Position numbers and translations under genes: made by a program. Under the pieces are notes generated by a model that had not been told where the DNA came from, did no database searches, and saw only the letters and a program-made list of their open reading frames with translations. This document shows, piece by piece, positions 1,551 through 21,981 of a stretch of DNA of 35,695 bases; the first letter of the stretch is position 1, and every line of letters starts with the position of its first letter. This stretch comes from a virus. The DNA is taken from IMG/VR virus record IMGVR_UViG_3300042332_001430, positions 1 to 35,695 of that record; one strand, given 5' to 3'.

Positions 1551-1569
1551 TCAACCGCTTATAATATAA

Positions 1570-1584
1570 ATTGGTGTTACCAAT
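1570..1584 (-). terminator. Short hairpin at the 3' end of tRNA-Tyr
   Basis: ATTGGT and ACCAAT form a 6-bp stem with a 3-nt loop, followed on the minus strand by TTATATTAT. It includes the tRNA discriminator base and could define the tRNA 3' end or act as a weak terminator. Confidence 0.35.
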
Positions 1585-1665
1585 GGGCAGGGAGGGATTT
1601 GAACCCCCGTAGGCAGAGCCAGCGGATTTACAGTCCGCCTCCATTAACCACTCGGACACCTACCC
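1584..1665 (-). tRNA. tRNA-Tyr (anticodon GUA)
   Basis: An 82-nt class II tRNA with a long variable arm. Acceptor GGGTAGG with CCTGCCC (one G-U), anticodon stem GCGGA/TCCGC with loop CTGTAAA giving GUA, T-arm with loop TTCAAAT, discriminator A, CCA not encoded. Only three to four bases separate its 5' end from the structured RNA upstream, so both must come from one transcript and be cut apart. Confidence 0.95.
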
Positions 1666-1668
1666 GAA

Positions 1669-1775
1669 AAGCCTGAAACCAGTAATGCCTCCTTCTATGC
1701 TATCTGCATAACGAGTAACATATTTCCAGCAGGACTCTTGGCGGAGATGCCAAAAGGTTTACTGGCTTCAGACTT
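1669..1775 (-). ncRNA. Unidentified structured small RNA next to tRNA-Tyr
   Basis: On the minus strand 1759-1775 and 1669-1685 form a 17-bp closing helix without a mismatch (two G-U pairs); the same sequence on the plus strand would have A-C mismatches, so the RNA acts as the minus-strand product. Inside it are three hairpins: TTGGC/GCCAA with loop ATCTCC, GAGT/ACTC, and ATGC/GCAT with loop AGATA. The loop CTCC can pair with GGAG downstream (pseudoknot). A sigma70-type promoter at 1782-1810 has its predicted start at about 1775, exactly the first base of the helix. The helix is followed by four U residues and then tRNA-Tyr. I find no match to RNA families I know (tmRNA, 6S, RNase P, common riboswitches, hammerhead). 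No convincing open frame runs through it. T4 also encodes stable RNAs of unknown function within its tRNA cluster. Confidence 0.6.
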
Positions 1776-1781
1776 AAGACA

Positions 1782-1810
1782 AGCTTAACACACTCTTATT
1801 TGGTTGTCAA
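1782..1810 (-). promoter_or_regulatory. Sigma70-type promoter for the small RNA and tRNA-Tyr
   Basis: TTGACA (1810-1805), 17-bp spacer, TAAGCT (1787-1782). The -10 box is weak but keeps T1, A2 and T6. The predicted start near 1775 coincides with the first base of the structured RNA. Confidence 0.6.
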
Positions 1811-1821
1811 GGTGTTTGGGA

Positions 1822-1829
1822 TATTTATA
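1822..1829 (-). promoter_or_regulatory. Late promoter box TATAAATA
   Basis: Perfect T4-type late box on the minus strand, four bases past the stop codon of the C39-like gene. It would give a late transcript covering the structured RNA, tRNA-Tyr and possibly the RlpA-like gene. Confidence 0.6.
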
Positions 1830-1833
1830 AAAC

Positions 1834-2529
1834 TTATGGTGTCTGGAAAACCCTACCCCATCCATCGTTACCAGCAGGACACCATCTACGAGCCAGCTCA
1901 GATCGTTTGTAGATTGCTCCTTTACCATTGGTCACTGGACCAGTATAGCCATCATTGAGGCTTCCATATGGATCATTAACTACATAATCTCCATTTGGTG
2001 TCTTTCCAATCACAACTACCATGTGTCCTCCTGTCGGATTAGATAAAGACCCCCTATGAAGAATACCAATAACAACAGGTCTACCAGCGGCAAGCTCTCT
2101 ATCAAGATCAGCAAAAGTAAGGGAATAGCTGAAGCTTGACTTAATTCCATAAGACGCAAGAGCACGAGTTTGAACCAAGTGGTCTGTTGTATCTCCGATG
2201 GAGAAGACTTTTTGAACATATGCATCATCTCCTTTTGGTCCTTTTAATGTGCCTGGTTTAAAATACTCAAGACACATTGCACATGCAGAAGAGTTACAGG
2301 TTCTATTTGCGTCTCTGTAATTATCTGTCTGAGGAAACCATGGAAAATTTTCTATAGTATTTGATTTTGGTTTTTCTGGTTTTGTTCTATAGATTCTTAC
2401 CCAATTAGATGAATCATCTATTAATGGAGAATCCATTAAATCAACTTCAAGTTGCTCTACTGCAGCAACATGCTTTGGATTATTTTCATCATAGTGTTTA
2501 AAGAAATTGTGTAAATCAATTCTGGCCAT
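1834..2529 (-). CDS. C39-like cysteine peptidase
   Basis: A 231-residue protein with a papain-like C39 peptidase layout. The probable nucleophile is Cys78 in NRTCNSSACAM, the histidine is His169 in PTGGHMVVVIG, and the third member is Asp186 in VVNDPYGS. The N-terminal 60 residues are charged and of unknown role. Families of this type cut peptides or peptidoglycan cross-links; in phages they occur in tail and lysis proteins. No signal peptide is seen, so it acts in the cytoplasm, in the virion, or after holin action. Start: ATG at 2529, with GGAG seven bases upstream, rather than the ATG at 2541. It overlaps the end of the nuclease gene by 14 bases, showing one transcript. The RlpA-like protein downstream makes a wall-active role plausible. 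Confidence 0.7.
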   Translation of the reverse strand: MARIDLHNFFKHYDENNPKHVAAVEQLEVDLMDSPLIDDSSNWVRIYRTKPEKPKSNTIENFPWFPQTDNYRDANRTCNSSACAMCLEYFKPGTLKGPKGDDAYVQKVFSIGDTTDHLVQTRALASYGIKSSFSYSLTFADLDRELAAGRPVVIGILHRGSLSNPTGGHMVVVIGKTPNGDYVVNDPYGSLNDGYTGPVTNGKGAIYKRSELARRWCPAGNDGWGRVFQTP

Positions 2530-5271: not shown

Positions 5272-7569
5272 TTAGATTTTGCAGCTTTCGCAGTCGTCTT
5301 CAGCTTCTAATTGGCTGAGTAATTGAGACAATGCTTCTCCTTTGTCATCTGACTCACCATCAGACTTACTATCATATGTATTTTGATAGTAAGAAGTCTT
5401 CCATCCATACTTATAGGTCATAAGTAAATCTTGAGCCATTACGCTAACAGGTACTTCATTATCGGCATAATTTTCTGGATTATATGACCAGTTGCCACTG
5501 ATTGCCTGATCAAAGAACTTTTGCATCACAGCAACAATATTAATGTAACCAGTGTTATTAGGCATGTCCCACAGAAGCGTATAGTTCTTCTTGAGAGATT
5601 GATAACTTGGAACAATCTGTTTGAGCGGACCTTTCTTTGATTTCTTAACGGACAAGTAATCTCTAGGTGGTTCGATTCCATTTGTTTCGTTTGACACAAC
5701 GGAACTGCTCTCCGATGGCATTTGTGCGGACAATGTTGAGTGCCTGAGACCGTGAGCCAGGATGGATGTTCTAAGTGTCTCCCAATCATAGTTGAGTTCG
5801 TTAGATACGATTTCGTCTACATCTTTTTTGTAAGTATCAATTGGAAGAATTCCTTGAGAATACTTAGTGCGATTAAAGTAATCACATGCACCCTTTTCCT
5901 TGGCAAGTTCATTGGATGCTTTGATTAGATAGTATTGGAAAGCTTCAGTCAAATCGTGAACAAGTTTCCATGCCTGAGGATCTTCATATTTTGCCCCATT
6001 ACGAGCAAGGAAGTGAGCAAGACCAATATATCCAATTCCAAGTGACCGACGAGATTCAGTAGAAACTCTTGCAGCATCAACTGGATAGTTTTGATAATCA
6101 ATGAGTTCATCCAGAGCACGAACTGAAAGATCACATAGTTCTTCAAGTTCAGAGAAGTTATTCAGTTTGCCAACATTGATTGCAGAAAGAATGCATAGTG
6201 CAATTTCTCCAGCTCCATCAATATGTTCAATTGGAACTGTTGGTAGAGTAATTTCCTGGCAAAGATTTGACATATTTACTTTGTCTAGGAAAGAACTATG
6301 AGAATTGCAATGGTCGATATTCATAATATAGATACGACCCGTTTCAGCCCTTTCTTTAAGGAGATCAAGGAATAGTTCTTGAGCACTGATAGTCTTCCTT
6401 GAAACAGACTGATCTCGTTCATAACTCTCATATAGTTGATCAAAACTATCAGTTCCAAAAGCATCATACAAGCCTGGAACATCGTGAGGGGAGAAGAGTG
6501 AGATTTCTTCATTTTTGATAAATCTCTCGTAGAAGATCTTGGAGATTTGAATGGAATAATCGAGTTTGCGTACACGGTTGTCCTCAGTTCCTTTGTTGTT
6601 TTTTAGTACAATAATATCTTCTATTTCTTGGTGCCAAATAGGGAAGTGAACTGTAGCTGAACCACCACGGATGCCGTTTTGAGTGCAACACCTGACCGTC
6701 GCTTCAAATTTCTTGAGGAACGGAATAACTCCGGTATGGGCAACCTCTCCACCACGGATTTTGCTATTGATACTTCTGATTCTGCCTGCGTTGATACCGA
6801 TTCCAGCCCGCTGTGCAACATAACGGCCAATAGCCATGTCAGAGCTGAAGATAGAATTGAGAGAATCGTCAGAATCAATAAGCACACAAGAAGCAAATTG
6901 ACGAAGAGTGGTTCTAACACCAGCCATAATTGGTGTTGGAATGTTAATTCTGTGCTTGGAGATTGCGTTGTAGTATCGTTTGACATAATCAAGTCTTGTT
7001 TCTTTAGGATATTCTGCAAAGATTGTTGCAGAAATTAACATGTACATGTATTGAGGAGTTTCATAAATTTTCTTTGAACTCCTATCTTGTACTAGATACT
7101 TATCTACTACTTGGCGAAGACCAGCATAAGTAAAGATATAATCTCTTTCATGATCCATCCAGGCATTAATTTTATCCCATTCTTCCATGGAATATTTACC
7201 TAGAAGTTCTCCATCATAAATGCCTAGAGAAACACCACCAACAAGATGATCATGAACATCAGGGAATCCTACTTTCCAGTTAGCTCCAAAGACTTGTTTA
7301 TATAAACCAAAAAGAAGGAGACGAGCAGCGACATACTGATAATTTGGATTATCGAGGCTAATAAGATCACTAGCTGAGCGAATGAGAATTTCTTGAATTT
7401 CATCCGTTGTAATTCCATCGTAGAACTGAATTCCAGAATTAATTTCTACTTGAGAAGCACTCACTCCTGCAAGTCCTCCACAAGCACATTCGACCATGCT
7501 ATGAATTTTGTCTAGATCCAGAGATTCAAAAGTACCATTACGCTTTTTAACTTTAGTACCGTTACTCAT
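5272..7569 (-). CDS. nrdA: Ribonucleotide reductase class Ia, alpha subunit
   Basis: A 765-residue catalytic subunit, the same size as E. coli NrdA. The N-terminus (about 1-90) has an ATP-cone (KKRNGTFESLDLDKI), so overall activity is probably controlled by ATP/dATP. Active-site cysteines lie in QFASCVLIDSDDS, SNLCQEITLP and IALCILSAINVG; the C-terminal CESCKI supplies the redox pair that accepts electrons from thioredoxin. MPSESSSVVSNETNGIEPP is the conserved loop near the active site. The start is the ATG at 7569, which overlaps the primase stop as ATGA and follows GGAAGAAAG; a start at 7581 is less likely. It is expressed with the primase from the early promoter at 8579-8607, which ties dNTP supply to replication. 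Confidence 0.97.
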   Translation of the reverse strand: MSNGTKVKKRNGTFESLDLDKIHSMVECACGGLAGVSASQVEINSGIQFYDGITTDEIQEILIRSASDLISLDNPNYQYVAARLLLFGLYKQVFGANWKVGFPDVHDHLVGGVSLGIYDGELLGKYSMEEWDKINAWMDHERDYIFTYAGLRQVVDKYLVQDRSSKKIYETPQYMYMLISATIFAEYPKETRLDYVKRYYNAISKHRINIPTPIMAGVRTTLRQFASCVLIDSDDSLNSIFSSDMAIGRYVAQRAGIGINAGRIRSINSKIRGGEVAHTGVIPFLKKFEATVRCCTQNGIRGGSATVHFPIWHQEIEDIIVLKNNKGTEDNRVRKLDYSIQISKIFYERFIKNEEISLFSPHDVPGLYDAFGTDSFDQLYESYERDQSVSRKTISAQELFLDLLKERAETGRIYIMNIDHCNSHSSFLDKVNMSNLCQEITLPTVPIEHIDGAGEIALCILSAINVGKLNNFSELEELCDLSVRALDELIDYQNYPVDAARVSTESRRSLGIGYIGLAHFLARNGAKYEDPQAWKLVHDLTEAFQYYLIKASNELAKEKGACDYFNRTKYSQGILPIDTYKKDVDEIVSNELNYDWETLRTSILAHGLRHSTLSAQMPSESSSVVSNETNGIEPPRDYLSVKKSKKGPLKQIVPSYQSLKKNYTLLWDMPNNTGYINIVAVMQKFFDQAISGNWSYNPENYADNEVPVSVMAQDLLMTYKYGWKTSYYQNTYDSKSDGESDDKGEALSQLLSQLEAEDDCESCKI

Positions 7570-21890: not shown

Positions 21891-21952
21891 ATCGTTCATC
21901 CACTCATGTGGACGGAAGTAAGCCGACTTAAAAAGCCGACTGAAGGAACGCT
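21891..21952 (+). promoter_or_regulatory. Glutamine riboswitch, downstream-peptide type
   Basis: The conserved blocks of the glutamine-binding glnA/downstream-peptide RNA are present in order: CGTTCA, then a hairpin TCCAC/GTGGA with loop TCAT, then GACGGAAGTA, and finally TGAAGGAACGC. Helix P1 is CGTTC (21893-21897) with GAACG (21946-21950). The family occurs in marine cyanobacteria and cyanophages before short genes and binds L-glutamine. In this copy the P3 region contains a direct repeat AGCCGACT (21921-21928 and 21934-21941) rather than the usual short helix. A short gene with AAGGAG follows 30 nt downstream, as is usual for this motif. Confidence 0.87.
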
Positions 21953-21981
21953 CTTTAATTTAACACTTAAGGAGAACCCCT

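Follow-up and report, generated by a model that had tools for sequence, protein, structure and literature searches.

The window analysed here spans the 35,695 bases of an IMG/VR virus record, and its first 25 kb resemble T4-like cyanophages, with matches in 246 phage records (172 Synechococcus phages and 47 named cyanophage). Genes for tRNA-Tyr, tRNA-Arg and tRNA-Ile lie on its minus strand, where an element of 107 nt (1669–1775) is followed, 3 nt past the end of its closing helix, by tRNA-Tyr (GTA; 1584–1665, minus strand). A manA RNA (RF01745) occupies positions 1–205 of the same strand, its first base directly after the end of tRNA-Ile, and manA also fills the gap between two tRNAs in a related locus (L010) and, to within about one base, in phage S-CREM1, so placed that it looks like a member of the tRNA array rather than a 5' UTR element. 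A glnA-type glutamine riboswitch, scoring above the Rfam threshold, is found on the plus strand at 21891–21954.

The 107-nt element is a conserved structured RNA of the minus strand, and it has relatives in other loci. It takes the form of a three-hairpin junction closed by a 17-bp helix, P1 (5' strand 1759–1775, 3' strand 1669–1685), in which the two G-U pairs described in the initial annotation are present. Within the helix and on the same strand lie the hairpin P2 (1735–1756), the mini-hairpin P3 (TCC-TGCT-GGA, 1725–1734) and a hairpin of 38 nt (1684–1721), which constitutes a conserved core, scores 51.4 bits with model R1 and overlaps P1 in its outermost pairs. The minus strand folds with an energy of -45.1 kcal/mol (z -5.68) and the plus strand more weakly (-33.7, z -3.29), none of 200 shuffles being as good in either case. 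Of 30 first-order Markov sequences as long as the window, 5 also had a helix with at least 17 pairs inside 120 nt, and a helix of 19 pairs exists elsewhere in the window on the plus strand; by this control helix length alone is weak evidence, and it was rejected as such.

Upstream of the helix, on the minus strand, a -35 box TTGACA (1805–1810) is separated by 17 nt from a weak -10 box TAAGCT (1782–1787), and further upstream TATAAATA at 1829–1822, which we take to be a T4-type late promoter box, is present where it had been annotated. The pairing statistics given below were obtained for nine distinct window-type sequences and those for the promoter boxes for 11 aligned sequences, in all 11 of which both TTGACA and TATAAATA are kept. 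TAAGCT agrees with TATAAT at three of six positions, becomes a variable TAnnnT in relatives and is absent from the promoter-scan list, so that the proposed sigma70-type promoter holds for its -35 box and spacing and is weak in its -10 box. The helix was also said to be followed by four U residues; two of these are its own last two bases, and what follows it is two U's, then C, then tRNA-Tyr. With two U's only, and no terminator listed there, an intrinsic terminator after the helix was rejected, and transcription should continue into tRNA-Tyr.

The whole element together with its upstream region is common to ten other loci besides the window. In the nine distinct sequences 96.4% of the 360 cells are paired, against at most 44.7% when the alignments are slid, and double-sided changes affect five pairs (2.0 in shuffles) and eight cells (2.4 in shuffles), the number of pair types being no higher than in shuffles (10 vs 9.8). 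In this alignment P1 (three pairs, columns 7/102, 9/100 and 11/98) and P2 (two pairs) are supported by compensatory changes, P1 also showing mismatches in some relatives at columns 7, 10, 11 and 12. There is little variation in P3 or the 38-nt arm among the window-type sequences, and the stem of P3, being invariant, gives no covariation signal. As standard pairs the three inner hairpins are kept in 9/9 sequences, save for one inner pair of P2 that is broken in seven of them. Among the eight sequences folded by energy (L010 was left out), the three-hairpin form is the minimum-energy fold in two (L012 and L025) and is obtained in part only in L007, L009 and L014, and inside the helix the folds of the window, L018 and L024 differ from it. 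The window's own minimum-energy fold contains the closing helix and hairpin 1 and lacks the 38-nt hairpin, which makes the case for that hairpin a comparative one; the three hairpins initially proposed thus stand as conserved pairings and not as the minimum-energy form of the window itself.

A pseudoknot between the loop CTCC and GGAG had likewise been suggested. Of nine distinct relatives, five keep CTCC and the rest have TTTCC, CATCC or TATCC, and members of the wider family often show AAAGAC where GGAG would stand. The pseudoknot of four pairs is thus without support; the nine sequences share an unvarying UCC-GGA core. A Shine-Dalgarno decoy (AAGGAGG) was rejected for a similar reason, since many members have AAAGAC in its place. 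The neighbouring gene is not constant either: tRNA-Tyr comes next in the window, as annotated, whereas tRNA-Arg adjoins the element in L012 and L024, and in L010 the next tRNA found is a tRNA-Tyr about 410 nt further on.

A blast match to phage DSL-LC03 was the entry point to a wider family, by way of a core common to otherwise different spacers. This core is the 38-nt hairpin, composed of a covarying stem, a bulged A, 3 bp, an internal loop G/AAR, a stem YUAnGC/GCnUAG and a loop ANAYA. Pattern scans returned 19 stretches in one case, at least 119 in another and 68 with another loop base; chance accounted for 7 of the 13 stretches in one early scan and for L042, from the scan with at least 119. 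The full-length hairpin is present in 191 of the 209 IMG/VR loci fetched, some of which may be redundant (same virus population), with the loop AGATA at 118 sites, ACATA at 59 and others at 14.

In a gap-free alignment of 40 distinct 38-mers, 97.3% of cells are paired in one structure, against at most 45% when slid, and 66 cells show double changes, compared with 17.1 in shuffles. Model R1 gave 82 matches from 83 sources, a set from which many near-identical loci were left out; 80 of these score at least 26 bits and two near 18 bits. The latter (17.9 and 17.7 bits), which are probably chance matches, were retained in an alignment of 66 distinct rows, of which 95.6% is paired, with 155 double-change cells compared with 51.3 in shuffles, figures that lean towards R1 because the alignment was fitted to that model. 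The number of pairs with any double change is close to that in shuffles (6 vs 5.1 for the 40 38-mers and 7 vs 6.5 for the 66 rows) and not clearly above it because variable columns are few. Judged from these alignments, covariation in the hairpin is strong. At columns 11/27 the 66 rows have U-G in 35 and C-G in 31, constituting a strand-specific U-G pair, and in sixteen leader sites the 3-bp stem has a U-C mismatch in place of its first pair. The compensatory changes expected of homologues are found both among the window-type sequences and in the wider family, and together with the strand-specific U-G pair they support the earlier proposal that selection acts on the minus-strand RNA.

Most sites were obtained with patterns that fix many bases, so scans were run with one feature forced to differ, by which invariance was tested at four places. 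Forcing a difference at the internal-loop G or at pair 15/23 returned one stretch each, both judged to be chance; at pair 13/25 it returned ten, of which four (L228, L231, L232 and L233) are real and have the pair compensated from A-U to G-C; and at loop base 18 it returned the 68 stretches mentioned above. The chance matches in the first three of these scans are L226, L227, L229, L230 and L234–L237.

A 3-bp stem check was passed by 182 of 201 sites, giving 134 distinct contexts; L001, L016, copies from the genome search and cut-off sites (e.g. L073 and L083) were left out of this count. In 80 of the 134 contexts no more than 3 nt separate the hairpin from a tRNA 3' end, the gap being 0 nt in 55, and the tRNAs concerned are of 11 amino-acid types. 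The other contexts comprise a AAGATAGAGG type (15), a UGGGC..GUAAGUCCC leader (9), the window type (8), a marine leader (4; a label derived from isolates S-B05 and S-SSM5 and not from contig habitats) and 18 that are unclassed, the leader class being undercounted since 16 of the 19 sites failing the stem check were leaders with the U-C mismatch (the other three were chance). All 209 tRNAs within about 250 nt of a hairpin are on its strand and none is on the opposite one. In the window the hairpin lies 5' of its tRNA, unlike in the tRNA-3'-end contexts. On the sequences compared here, the conserved unit is the 38-nt hairpin, which mostly comes after the 3' ends of various tRNAs and of which the 107-nt element is a local version; the initial view of a new phage structured RNA is supported, and what had been described as a promoter-driven small RNA beside tRNA-Tyr proves to be part of a wider hairpin family.

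Of the tRNA-abutting sites, 66 have another tRNA in range downstream, and at 10 of these 3–7 nt are left between it and the hairpin, which thus fills the gap alone and is able to stand alone; spacers of about 41–48 nt between two tRNAs hold the hairpin only. Tight abutment is general in hairpin-bearing arrays, where 141 of 516 tRNA-tRNA gaps, in 78 of the hairpin loci, are of 3 nt or less.

The leaders form a second kind of carrier. The marine leader is promoter-proximal and is common in cyanophages: the S-B05 leader as query matches 427 phage records in some part, and among the 60 matches listed most cover its 3' part. The S-SSM5 leader carries no R1 match and resembles Glutamine-II at E 6e-6 and 29.4 bits, below the cut-off of 33. 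In L159 the hairpin fills a peripheral stem of a glutamine-riboswitch-like leader, the sub-threshold match (17.5 bits, E 0.1) spanning the hairpin as an insert, and the leader of L036 stands ahead of a gene for a major head protein (PHROG 1005, E 9e-50; Pfam PF03864); the proteins encoded after the leaders in S-EIVl and L159 matched no known function. A glutamine-riboswitch variant below the Rfam cut-off, common in cyanophages, was also seen soon after promoter-like sequence in L154 (1480–1533) and L030 (about 1475–1570), where a second copy of CGTTCATCC directly ahead of the start codon could pair with the same GAACG.

The absence of a known RNA family at the site, stated in the initial annotation, agrees with the Rfam searches: Rfam 15 gave no match over the hairpin at gathering cut-offs for the window and 30 loci, nor at E up to 10 for window positions 1560–1860 and one capsid-leader type. 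Some relatives hold the hairpin in a peripheral stem of a glutamine-riboswitch-type leader, but the glutamine riboswitch models (RF01704 and RF01739) have no match to the window RNA at 1669–1775, nor anywhere in 1560–1860 at E up to 10. The T4 tRNA cluster holds stable RNAs of unknown role, and the window RNA resembles them in location, as a non-tRNA RNA inside a phage tRNA cluster. The RNAs manA, wcaG and abiF (RF01745, RF01761 and RF03085) are likewise structured, of unproven role and situated in T4-like cyanophage tRNA arrays; the hairpin differs from them in having no model match (the abiF model included) and in being a 38-nt graft on several unrelated RNAs. In the available portions of two papers the RNAs reported from cyanophages are manA, wcaG, abiF and glnA (PMC9964418, PMC2864571), and the accessible part of the S-SZBM1 paper reports tRNAs without using the words non-coding RNA, ncRNA or riboswitch (PMC9146016); searches of open-licence PMC papers brought up no description of the hairpin.

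Phage tRNA arrays are usually read as stores of tRNAs, and here a conserved non-tRNA RNA part is found inside them, combining clear base-pair covariation with several unrelated carrier RNAs. It is also mostly present once: 46 of 49 match-holding records (19/20 and 27/29; E <= 0.001) have a single copy, in a set chosen for having the hairpin and consisting in many cases of fragments, and two copies each occur in DSL-LC02, G044 and G045. Fixed unpaired bases, stems free to change, changing carriers and a mostly single copy would be best explained by a docking part, and we tentatively favour, at somewhat below an even chance, the reading of the hairpin as a portable module on which a single trans-acting factor, probably a protein, docks. 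Recognition by such a factor would involve the bulged A together with the internal (G/AAR) and terminal (ANAYA) loops, and phages would attach the hairpin to RNAs that are likely to be abundant, namely tRNA arrays, a promoter-proximal leader and a capsid mRNA. Enzymes cutting tRNA ends may then free the hairpin or leave it on a trailer (tRNA punctuation), and it could act in cis on its carrier or as a decoy in trans. For the window, the minus-strand structured RNA would most likely form the 5' part of a transcript of the tRNA operon that starts from the host-type promoter near 1775, and also from the late phage promoter, and RNase P cutting at the 5' end of tRNA-Tyr would release a product some 110 nt long (about 1775 to 1666). 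What the analysis shows is the sequence and its strand, the covariation, the contexts and the copy number; transcription, the 5' end at 1775, processing, abundance and the factor are what we infer.

A stability or processing element acting in cis would also suit the 0-nt distance from the tRNA 3' end seen in 55 of the 134 contexts and the location in 5' leaders of the window, marine and capsid types; as such an element the hairpin would block exonucleases or mark a cut, protecting the leader or setting the tRNA 3' end. This is possible yet on the unlikely side, given that 46 of 49 records have one copy despite the many tRNAs per array and that 11 tRNA types are used, which argues against a general tRNA-trailer or end signal.

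A mostly single copy and unrelated contexts, the inter-tRNA spacers holding the hairpin alone and the occurrence in some hairpin-bearing arrays of abiF RNA, a separate element lying upstream of tRNAs, would all be compatible with the hairpin being a free RNA titrating away a host protein, e.g. a defence nuclease. We consider such a decoy improbable, as two exact patterns run over genome contigs found no host counterpart: the strict one had no matches, and the single match of the looser one (L238 3062–3099, in a Saprospiraceae bin) was rejected as a host copy, being a cyanophage-like leader with the hairpin on a contig that looks misbinned, probably. The hairpin may resemble some CRISPR repeats, and an anti-CRISPR repeat-mimic RNA would be like the repeat of its host. 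In a more far-reaching reading, phages may carry a portable hairpin mostly once per genome and graft it to capsid mRNA, riboswitch leaders or tRNAs to have it made in quantity, with a host factor as its target in trans; that it works instead as a small ribozyme of a new kind would be less likely. We regard this reading as rather doubtful.

The put RNA of HK022 is an antiterminator that, placed at the start of an operon, acts on RNA polymerase, and a comparable function would be conceivable in untranslated arrays and in the promoter-proximal window and marine types. We give this a very low probability. Among 21 sites flanked by 3 kb on either side, tRNAs are more numerous upstream in 8 and downstream in 7 and equally numerous in 6, and the lack of bias to the array start speaks against an antiterminator.

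Adjacency to tRNA 3' ends, internal-loop bases that were invariant where tested and mostly single copies might alternatively indicate a new self-cleaving ribozyme. Theta/HDV-like ribozymes form a nested double pseudoknot, and the covariation here supports a simple nested hairpin. The theta ribozymes of gut phages are situated beside phage tRNAs as 3' trailer elements, in a setting where 4.5% of tRNAs encode CCA (PMC10879173, in the excerpts available). They share with our hairpin the position 3' of phage tRNAs (80/134 contexts) but have an HDV-like fold, whereas the hairpin is nested, has no junction or pseudoknot, matches no Rfam ribozyme and is also embedded inside leaders, all of which leaves a theta-like ribozyme with very little probability.

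Presence in many different spacers, and the HNH genes observed near the copies in DSL-LC03 and DSL-LC02, could finally be taken to reflect a palindrome or mobile repeat of the DNA, such as a recombination site. This explanation is disfavoured and highly improbable: U-G pairs occur on one strand only, unpaired bases are conserved, the hairpin is always on the tRNA strand where tRNAs are near, and most records have one copy.

Several observations count against the preferred docking function: the hairpin is absent from the window's own minimum-energy fold, tight abutment is general in the arrays, invariance was tested at four places, sixteen leader sites carry the U-C mismatch, and many isolates lack the hairpin. 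When ten isolates were searched whole with R1, two gave matches, S-SZBM1 (63.9 bits) and S-EIVl (36.2 bits), and none was found at E <= 0.1 in S-CREM1, S-CRM01, S-PM2, S-SCSM1, S-CAM9, RN05-S, S-H68 (partial) or S-SSM5, from which it follows that the hairpin is dispensable. Five isolates with the hairpin were identified, S-SZBM1, S-EIVl, DSL-LC02, DSL-LC03 and S-B05 (28.1 bits), all with Synechococcus hosts. As S-SZBM1, which is recorded as growing on Synechococcus CB0101, offers a defined 38-nt target with mutable bases, the role of extra RNAs in phage tRNA clusters becomes testable.

Other elements were seen in these arrays. Further recurrent spacer elements, including CTTCTACTACGGGTATCTTCCGTAGAGTCGTA and TTGCG(stem)AATGCCG, occur in L022 (3496–3527, minus strand), L026 (5893–5924), L029, L096, L039 and L120; an Rfam search of L022, L023, L029 and L099 gave no match at such elements. 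An abiF RNA lies 4 nt upstream of phage tRNA genes in L078 (2874–2910), L080 (748–784), L028 (2900–2936) and L146 (6242–6278), and L028, with a cyanophage-like tRNA cluster, also has a permuted tmRNA at 5355–5684 with the tag GGNSPLQNII.
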